NCBI GenBank assembly: GCA_003279935.1 | Contig: QCGL01000001.1 | Coordinates: 1-64,000, forward strand | Direction: 5' to 3' | DNA: 64,000 bases | Source of the DNA: Prochlorococcus sp. AG-388-A04 | GTDB taxonomy: Bacteria > Cyanobacteriota > Cyanobacteriia > PCC-6307 > Cyanobiaceae | Shown here: in pieces, positions 14,410 to 17,113 of the stretch | Layout: each line of letters begins with the position of its first letter | Position numbering within the stretch: position 1 is the stretch's first letter | Notes under the pieces: model-generated | What the model saw: only the letters and a program-made list of their open reading frames with translations | What the model was told of the DNA's origin: nothing | The model's database searches: none | Program-made: the position numbers and the translations under genes

Positions 14410-15825
14410 TTAGCCTTGAACGTCGAGCTTATCAACGGTATCAAACTCAAACTTGATTTCTTTCCAAGTTTCGAGTGCAATAGCTAATTCAGGACTATGC
14501 TTAGCAGCTTCCATTAGAATGTCTCTACTCTCTTTTTCGATTTCGCGACCTGCATTACGTGCTTTCACGCAAGCTTCCAATGCAACACGGTTTGCAGCAG
14601 CTCCGGCAGCTGAACCCCATGGATGACCATGAGTTCCTCCTCCGAATTGAAGACAAGAATCATCTCCAAATATTGCAAGCAGTGCTGGCATATGCCAAAC
14701 GTGGATACCACCAGATGCAACAGCAAAAACTCCAGGCATTGATCCCCAATCTTGATCAAAGAAGTTACCTCTTGATCTATCTTCGGGAACAAATGATTCT
14801 CTTAAGTTATCAATGTAACCAAGAGTAGTTTGACGGTCACCTTCTAGTTTTCCAACAACGGTTCCAGTGTGTAACTGATCTCCTCCAGAGAGTCTTAAAC
14901 ATTTCGCTAGAACTCTAAAATGGATACCATGCTTTGGATGTCTATCAATCACAGCATGCATAGCTCTGTGTATATGCAGAAGCATGCCATTTTTACGACA
15001 CCAGTTTGCAAGGCCAGTATTTGCGGTAAATCCACCAGTTATGTAATCATGCATGATGATTGGCATATCAAGCTCTTTAGCAAACTCTGCACGTTCGTAT
15101 AGTTCTTCAGGAGTATTTGCGGTGCAATTTAAATAATGACCTTTTACTTCTCCAGTTTCTTGCTGAGCAAGTTTAACGGCCTCAGCAACGAACTCAAATC
15201 TTTCTCTCCAACGTTGGAATGGCTGAGAATTGATATTCTCATCATCTTTAGTTAGATCAAGACCACCTCTTAGGCATTCATAGACAACCCTTCCGTAGTT
15301 CTTACCAGACAATCCTAATTTAGGTTTGATGGTACAACCAAGAAGTGGTCTTCCATACTTATTAAGTCGATCTCTTTCAACAACTATACCGTTAGGTGGT
15401 CCACCACAGGTCTTAATAAAAGCGATTGGGAATCTAATATCCTCAAGACGAAGATGTCTTAAAGCTTTAAATCCAAATACGTTACCTACTAAAGAGGTTA
15501 ATACGTTTGTAATTGAACCTTCTTCGAAAAGATCTAGAGGGTATGCAATAAATGCATAAAATGCTTCTGGATCACCAGGAACGTCTTCGATTCGATAACA
15601 ACGGCCTTTGTAAAATTCAAGGTCGGTAAGTAACTCGGACCAAACAGTTGACCAAGTACCAGTAGAAGATTCAGCCGCTACCGCAGCTGCAACTTCTTCT
15701 CTTGGGACACCTTCTTGGCCTGTGCATTTGAAACAGGCTAACAAATCAGTGTCGAGGGGGACATATTCAGGAGTCCAGTATGTATCTCTGTACTCCTTTA
15801 CCCCAGCGTCATACTTCTTACTCAT
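14410..15825 (-). CDS. cbbL: Ribulose bisphosphate carboxylase large subunit (form IA)
   Basis: [63 protein letters not shown]. Confidence 0.99.
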
Positions 15826-15887: not shown

Positions 15888-16199
15888 TTAGTCCTTTTGA
15901 CCAAGGAAATCGCCATTACCAAGTGCTGGCTCAACTTCTCTATGAGGGCGAGCAATGATGTGAGCTGCGACAAGACCGTCACCAACTCTCTCACAAGCAT
16001 CAGCTCCGGCTCTTACTGCTGCGTTAACAGCTCCCGTTTCTCCTCTAACTAAAACTGTGACATAACCGCCACCTACGAATTCACGACCGATAAGACGAAC
16101 TTCTGCTGCCTTGGTCATTGCGTCTGCTGCTTCGATTGCAGGTACAAGTCCGCGTGTCTCGATCATGCCGAGTGCGATACCCATTGTTTCTGTAGCCAT
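15888..16199 (-). CDS. csoS1: Carboxysome shell hexamer CsoS1 (BMC-H)
   Basis: MGIALGMIETRGLVPAIEAADAMTKAAEVRLIGREFVGGGYVTVLVRGETGAVNAAVRAG. Confidence 0.98.
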   Translation of the reverse strand: MATETMGIALGMIETRGLVPAIEAADAMTKAAEVRLIGREFVGGGYVTVLVRGETGAVNAAVRAGADACERVGDGLVAAHIIARPHREVEPALGNGDFLGQKD

Positions 16200-16217
16200 T
16201 GCCTACTAATTACTAAA

Positions 16218-16231
16218 TGTGGAATGTTCAA
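16218..16231 (+). repeat. 14-nt direct repeat TGTGGAATGTTCAA, copy 1
   Basis: Identical to 16450-16463. Confidence 0.85.
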
Positions 16232-16255
16232 TCCGAAGAATGGTCCATAACGTAC

Positions 16256-16263
16256 TGATAAGT
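16256..16263 (+). promoter_or_regulatory. Half-site TGATAAGT
   Basis: Exact match to operator arm, 57 bp upstream of csoS1. Confidence 0.4.
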
Positions 16264-16277
16264 CAAGCATTTTTTAC

Positions 16278-16307: not shown

Positions 16308-16326
16308 TGATAAGTTAAACTTATCA
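16308..16326. promoter_or_regulatory. Candidate operator: inverted repeat TGATAAGT-TAA-ACTTATCA
   Basis: 8-bp perfect arms, 3-bp spacer. Confidence 0.6.
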
Positions 16327-16359: not shown

Positions 16360-16410
16360 AAATTAGTTAGTGCATCAAAACATACGGTTGTGTTAATAAA
16401 AAATTTACAT

Positions 16411-16480
16411 TAAGTTATGCGCGTACGAGACAGGCCCTGTCTACACAGGTGTGGAATGTTCAACCTCTCCTGTCTCTGTA
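16411..16480. ncRNA. Candidate structured RNA or leader, GC-rich islet
   Basis: AGACAGG-C-CCTGTCT at 16428-16442, alternative GAGACAGG (16427-16434)/CCTGTCTC (16469-16476) pairing; much richer in GC than surrounding intergenic DNA. Confidence 0.4.
16450..16463 (+). repeat. 14-nt direct repeat TGTGGAATGTTCAA, copy 2
   Basis: Identical to 16218-16231. Confidence 0.85.
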
Positions 16481-16525
16481 TCAAGTTTTAAAGTAAGATA
16501 ATATTCAGATATTTTTTATATTATT

Positions 16526-17113
16526 TTGAATTCTTCTTCTGTTCTTACTATTGCAAGCGGAAATCAAAAGAAGGTATCTGAAATATTAGAAATGTTAGAT
16601 GTTCTATCTTTAAAAGTAAAAAAGCAACCCGAATATTTGAATGTAGAAGAGACAGGTATAACCTATTTTGATAATGCTTTTTTAAAAGCAAAAGCAGCTT
16701 CTTTAGAAACTAAAACTTGGGCCTTAGCCGATGACTCAGGGCTTGAGGTTGATTATTTAGATGGAAGACCTGGTATATATTCTGCAAGATATGCCGACAA
16801 TAATAATGAAAAGCTTACTAAATTACTTAAAGAACTAAGTGATATCCCATACAGAAGCGCAAAATTCATTAGTTGTATGGTTCTATGTGATCCAGAAGGA
16901 AATTTGGTAAAAGATGCAACGGGTATTTGCTGGGGGGAAATTCTTAAAGAACCAAAATATCCTAACGGAGAATTTGAATCTATTTTTTGGGTTAAAGAGG
17001 CTAATTGTGTATATGGAGAATTAAGCCATTCTCAATTGAGTAAACTTGGGAGTAGAGGTAAAGCCGCAAAAAATATAGCTCCTTTTTTAAAAAGAGAATT
17101 TGGAATAGATTAA
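16526..17113 (+). CDS. rdgB: Non-canonical purine NTP pyrophosphatase (RdgB/HAM1)
   Basis: LTIASGNQKKVSEI, WALADDSGLEVDYLDGRPGIYSARYA, LSKLGSRGKAAKNIAPFL. Confidence 0.93.
   Translation: MNSSSVLTIASGNQKKVSEILEMLDVLSLKVKKQPEYLNVEETGITYFDNAFLKAKAASLETKTWALADDSGLEVDYLDGRPGIYSARYADNNNEKLTKLLKELSDIPYRSAKFISCMVLCDPEGNLVKDATGICWGEILKEPKYPNGEFESIFWVKEANCVYGELSHSQLSKLGSRGKAAKNIAPFLKREFGID

Follow-up and report, generated by a model that had tools for sequence, protein, structure and literature searches.

The GC-rich islet between csoS1 and rdgB in the 64,000-nt stretch of Prochlorococcus DNA that we analyzed (the window) is, as judged by comparative sequence analysis, a conserved structured RNA element read on the + strand, toward rdgB. 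Of the explanations considered, the one we find likely is that the islet gives rise to a base-pairing RNA of ~60 nt from its own promoter, which would make it harder for ribosomes to load on csoS1, the gene that heads the carboxysome operon. Such an RNA probably controls the amount of carboxysome made. Two of its segments are complementary to two sites on the csoS1 mRNA (Table 1), and both have coevolved with these sites.

Table 1. Genes, predicted RNA and promoter elements, and pairing sites at the csoS1-rdgB locus of the window
Feature	Position	Strand	Description
csoS1	15888..16199	-	major shell protein with a BMC domain, heads the carboxysome operon; Pfam BMC E 1.5e-26
rbcL	14410-15825		next after csoS1
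rdgB	16526..17113	+	Ham1 family NTP pyrophosphatase, 3´ of the RNA, same strand; Pfam Ham1p_like E 2.4e-44
Structured RNA	16423..16481	+	predicted 5´ end ~16423, through the end of closing stem P1
RNA promoter, -35-like TTGTGT	16388..16393	+	TTG-16/18-TANNNT in 61/81 loci
RNA promoter, -10-like TAAGTT	16411..16416	+	17-nt spacer to TTGTGT
Closing stem P1, 5´ strand GAGACAGG	16427..16434	+	two-sided changes at 8/8 pairs
Closing stem P1, 3´ strand CCTGTCTC	16469..16476	+	covariation in 81 loci
Hairpin P2, CCTGT-CTAC-ACAGG	16436..16449	+	predicted fold; covaries, 86.9% of cells paired
P2 loop region TGTCTAC	16438..16444	+	matches target site 2 (16200-16206, csoS1 Shine-Dalgarno region) by 6 Watson-Crick pairs and 1 G.U
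Seed AGGTGTGGAATGTTCAA	16447..16463	+	complementary to the csoS1 mRNA 5´ end; 14 Watson-Crick pairs and extension
Target site 1 TTGAACATTCCACATTT	16215..16231	-	predicted csoS1 mRNA 5´ end
Target site 2 GTAGGCA	16200..16206	-	directly 5´ of the csoS1 ATG, Shine-Dalgarno region
csoS1 promoter, -35 TTGACT	16261..16266	-	TTGAC exactly 37 nt 5´ of GAAC in 54/56 loci
csoS1 promoter, -10 CATTCT (CATTGT in most)	16237..16242	-	conserved columns -13 to -8

The initial annotation had singled out this islet for its GC content and self-complementarity, and both held up: the GC content is 0.54, the segments GAGACAGG, CCTGTCT (16436-16442) and CCTGTCTC lie exactly where they had been placed, and the stem covaries throughout the family. 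When 88 loci from the same genus are aligned, hardly any change is seen in a block of ~60 nt around 16427-16487, in contrast to the remaining spacer and even to rdgB codons, which vary. Compensatory substitutions in relatives, which the annotation had named as a test, are strongly present. In 81 loci obtained with a 56-sequence alignment and a covariance model, 99.1% of the cells of closing stem P1 are paired and every one of its eight pairs has changed on both sides, as have 14 of the 15 pairs of the whole structure. None of 500 shuffles matched the observed covariation scores, and the signal was lost when the partner strand was slid. Distant lineages have swapped entire stems (GCAACACG/CGTGTTGC in L163 and GGAACCGGC/GCCGGUUCC in L255). 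In the predicted fold, the closing stem joins a short hairpin and the loop that bears the GGAAUGUUC segment at a three-way junction. Single-sequence fold z-scores are unremarkable (-0.70 for the + strand, -1.89 for the - strand and -1.52 for the trimmed + RNA), so from one genome alone the structure does not rise above chance.

The strand can be read from the same stem. The cells of P1 that are not Watson-Crick comprise, on the + strand, 32 G.U pairs versus at most six other mismatches, a ratio that would be reversed for the - strand, and thus the RNA appears to be read on the + strand. Transcription in either direction had initially been allowed for; the + strand, toward rdgB, is favored by this asymmetry and by the promoter described below, and the asymmetry argues strongly against an RNA from the - strand. 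The proposal that GAGACAGG forms mutually exclusive helices, either with the adjacent CCTGTCT or with the distal CCTGTCTC, fared less well and is not conserved. No more than 5 bp can form in the adjacent pairing, with a loop of 5 nt, and outside the window's genus the adjacent sequence is CCCTAGG or similar, with no pairing of the GAGACAGG/CCTGTCT type. Because the adjacent partner exists in the window's clade only, a riboswitch-like two-state leader is not supported.

By the covariance model, 198 of 300 genomes of the family carry the element, mostly as a single copy, and these represent 45 of 59 genera; we take this family (Cyanobiaceae) to be the alpha-carboxysome cyanobacteria. The model (R1) matches the window at 16419-16485 with 61.8 bits (E 6.9e-17). 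A spread outside the family was rejected, a class-wide sample of 242 genomes giving two marginal matches only (E 0.0015 and 0.006). A weak match in genome G155, which sits in an ABC-transporter-like coding sequence, was put down to chance. Viral carriage was also considered and set aside: 40 contigs share a 15-16-mer, but their covariance model scores are weak (≤24.8 bits). Rfam 15 gave no match to the window at the gathering threshold and none to four homologous loci at E ≤ 1.

The key to finding the csoS1 mRNA target was an exact 14-nt repeat, TGTGGAATGTTCAA, that had been overlooked in the initial annotation. One copy lies within the islet (16450-16463) and the other just 5´ of csoS1 (16218-16231), where it is as invariant as the islet block in the 88 same-genus loci. 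Other genera repeat this layout, with GAACATTCC at ~-262 and ~-30 relative to csoS1, and in Prochlorococcus and marine Synechococcus the spacing between the two GAACATTCC copies is tight, at 230-238 bp. The GGAAUGUUC loop is complementary to the predicted first bases of the csoS1-rbcLS-cso mRNA, with 14 exact pairs in the window and ~15 across the family. When each RNA was compared with its own csoS1 mRNA, positions -6 to +8 were each paired in 69-77 of 77 unique combinations, with sharp edges on both sides. Position -3, where the window's genus has T:A and other genera mostly G:C (T:A 38, G:C 30, G:T 4, A:T 2), was paired in 74 cases versus 36.6 on permutation, and mismatches in the flanks were G.U in 95 cells versus A.C in 4. 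When each of 36 genera was represented by a single locus, all nine core pairs held (324/324 cells) and flank pairing exceeded that seen on partner exchange (z 5.8, 0/5000), bearing in mind that permutation tests remove shared ancestry only in part and that the duplex tests for both contacts were designed after the sequences had been seen.

The exact 9-mer GAACATTCC is found 5´ of csoS1 in all 179 element-positive loci (179/179), and most genera that lack the element according to the model have a degenerate copy (g37, g32, g24, g54, g59, g25, g35 and g44). There are exceptions in which the csoS1 GAACATTCC site is kept without a clear element: L294 (g18), L259 (g9), L299 (g5), L304 (one g51) and g34, where the element is weak. 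For L294, L259, L304 and L299, the explanation would be either an RNA that has relocated and diverged or another role of the GAACATTCC site. Cyanobium-type genomes have sbtA-sbtB, a bicarbonate transporter/PII-like pair on the csoS1 strand, inserted between csoS1 on one side and the element and rdgB on the other (1230-2511 in L253, 952-2302 in L252). There, 14-16 pairs are still kept although the element and the csoS1 site are 1.6-1.9 kb apart. Within the window, a search with TGAACATTCCAY found no further exact targets beyond the two sites.

A second match, UGUCUAC/GUAGGCA, was found by cofolding the window's RNA with the csoS1 mRNA, and all 139 loci that share the window's clade type are free of internal mismatches in it. 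Elsewhere the P2 loop tracks the local csoS1 start, with loop/target combinations such as CAUUGCC/GGCAAUG, CAUUGUCU/AGACAAUG, GCUUUGC/GCAAGGC and CCUGGAG/CUCCAGG. Across 36 genera, the energy of loops with their own targets was -11.86 kcal/mol, versus -10.68 for swapped partners (sd 0.25, 0/2000) and -8.96 for shuffled loops (0/500). This signal is weaker than that of the first contact: pairing is reduced to just 3-5 bp in some genera, and when 15 csoS1 windows were compared in each of 20 loci, the csoS1 start region ranked first in only 3.

Promoter-like sequences point to divergent transcription. On the + strand, a TANNNT begins 8-18 nt 5´ of the stem in 81/81 loci (22 in shuffles) and is preceded at 16-18 nt by a TTG in 61/81 (1.5 in shuffles), giving the RNA a predicted promoter of its own that diverges from the carboxysome operon. 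On the csoS1 side, TTGAC starts 37 nt and CATTGT 13 nt ahead of GAACATTCC, a spacing that places the predicted csoS1 mRNA start at or beside GAACAUUCC. A generic consensus promoter scan at a strict threshold detected neither of these two promoters. The csoS1 promoter region also contains a palindrome, GATAAG-N4/5-CTTAT (16309-16324 on the - strand of the window), ~125-130 nt 5´ of the csoS1 ATG. Of 19 lineages examined, 13 have this palindrome, and it may serve as the site of a regulator, perhaps one of the LysR type.

A terminator scan of the window found no intrinsic terminator 3´ of the element, and rdgB adjoins the element in nearly all genomes, its start usually ~35-75 nt away. In view of these two observations a free sRNA is a candidate only; the 3´ end of the RNA may arise by processing, or the RNA may be an rdgB leader. 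Both of the roles suggested at the outset, an rdgB leader and a carboxysome-linked sRNA, stand: the RNA shares its strand with rdgB, and the mRNA with which it would pair is that of the carboxysome operon. In many genera, as seen in L253, L272, L274, L254, L164, L151 and L167, a conserved CANAATGG motif lies ~40-50 nt 3´ of the element, before rdgB, and may be the -10 element of a separate rdgB promoter. In the window's clade the apparent start codon of rdgB (16526) is TTG, not ATG, and the frame upstream of it varies between clades.

In the model that we favor, the RNA would be transcribed on the + strand, divergently from the carboxysome operon, and its exposed GGAAUGUUC seed would bind the very first bases of the csoS1-rbcLS-cso mRNA while the loop of the P2 hairpin would pair with the csoS1 Shine-Dalgarno and start-codon region. 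Together, the two contacts would most likely impede ribosome loading and lower csoS1 translation, and mRNA decay could be affected as well. The acting form could be a free sRNA or an rdgB-leader RNA. A broader version of this model seems to us evenly balanced between right and wrong. In it, an RNA with two contacts, shared by the whole family, would link the carboxysome operon to the housekeeping gene next to it; one loop would hold the 5´ end of the csoS1 mRNA and the other its start codon, both having co-evolved with their sites throughout the alpha-carboxysome cyanobacteria. The RNA, possibly as an rdgB leader, would set shell-to-Rubisco output post-transcriptionally in bacteria that have very few protein regulators.

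Two alternatives keep the same RNA and change its purpose, and because they share the structure and the pairing of the favored model, our estimates for them overlap with that for the model itself. The element could primarily be a structured 5´ leader of the rdgB mRNA, with the pairing to the 5´ end of the abundant csoS1 mRNA acting on rdgB or in both directions. The shared strand, the short distance to the rdgB start and the lack of a terminator before rdgB all fit such a leader, as does the fact that the element remains with rdgB where sbtAB parts it from csoS1. However, the rdgB frame is ~0.7 kb 3´ of the element in L252, and a loop that tracks the csoS1 start region would be pointless unless csoS1 were acted on; we consider a primary leader function possible but doubtful. 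The main rival as regards the sign of regulation is a positive effect, whereby covering the 5´ end of the cso mRNA would shield it from 5´-end-dependent decay. The strongest contact is indeed at the predicted mRNA 5´ end and not at the Shine-Dalgarno sequence, and an antisense RNA to rbcL acts positively in Synechocystis (PMC5306279). The second contact covers the Shine-Dalgarno sequence and start codon and coevolves with them, which favors repression, and we think protection unlikely.

Other readings would dispense with the RNA-RNA pairing or with the strand proposed here. The two GAACATTCC copies could be DNA sites for a regulator of the divergent promoters, a looping operator pair for which the complementarity is incidental. 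Their tight spacing in Prochlorococcus and marine Synechococcus is what such a pair might show, but identity is kept at a spacing of 1.6 kb in sbtAB-bearing genomes, the flanks covary with tolerance for G.U and not A.C, and the distal copy lies inside the covarying RNA structure, all of which make this explanation highly improbable. Most improbable of all is a structured RNA on the - strand that forms a long leader of the cso operon: although the window sequence folds slightly more stably as the minus strand, the G.U asymmetry, the orientation of the promoter and the position of the csoS1 promoter at -37/-13 of GAAC oppose it.

The base-pairing RNA that we propose resembles Yfr1, Yfr10, Yfr28 and other Yfr RNAs of Prochlorococcus in being short, structured, intergenic and base-pairing. 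Yfr28 also overlaps the 5´ UTR of its neighbor ftsZ (PMC7368042), and Yfr10 pulls down csoS1 and csoS2 mRNA (PMC6778093). The ACUCCUCACAC motif of Yfr1 and Yfr10 (PMC2518516) is, in contrast, absent from the element, and the seed is not that motif. The comparison with the Yfr catalogue suggested in the initial annotation covered Yfr8-Yfr21: the MED4 table of these RNAs (PMC2518516) has no locus at 0.50-0.55 Mb, the csoS1 zone in most of the complete genomes of the genus that we examined, and the RNA could already have been named in later Yfr lists. As their cluster 87, Axmann et al. (2005) list a conserved element that was predicted "upstream of the rbcLS cluster containing conserved promoter", with an alignment length of 336 and marked as not tested; this cluster may overlap the RNA locus (PMC1242208). 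It differs in that it was taken as a promoter region from two sequences, and the entry for the cluster gives no structure, strand, target pairing or distribution (PMC1242208). RblR of Synechocystis is likewise a regulatory RNA that acts on a carbon-fixation mRNA, but it is 113 nt long, completely complementary to rbcL, positive in effect and from a beta-carboxysome organism (PMC5306279).

If the model is true, an ancient RNA that acts at the head gene of the carboxysome-Rubisco operon would offer a control point that is direct and testable. Much of the carbon fixation in the ocean is due to Prochlorococcus and marine Synechococcus, whose genomes encode few protein regulators. From the covarying pairs one can predict exactly the mutations that should abolish control by pairing and those that should restore it.
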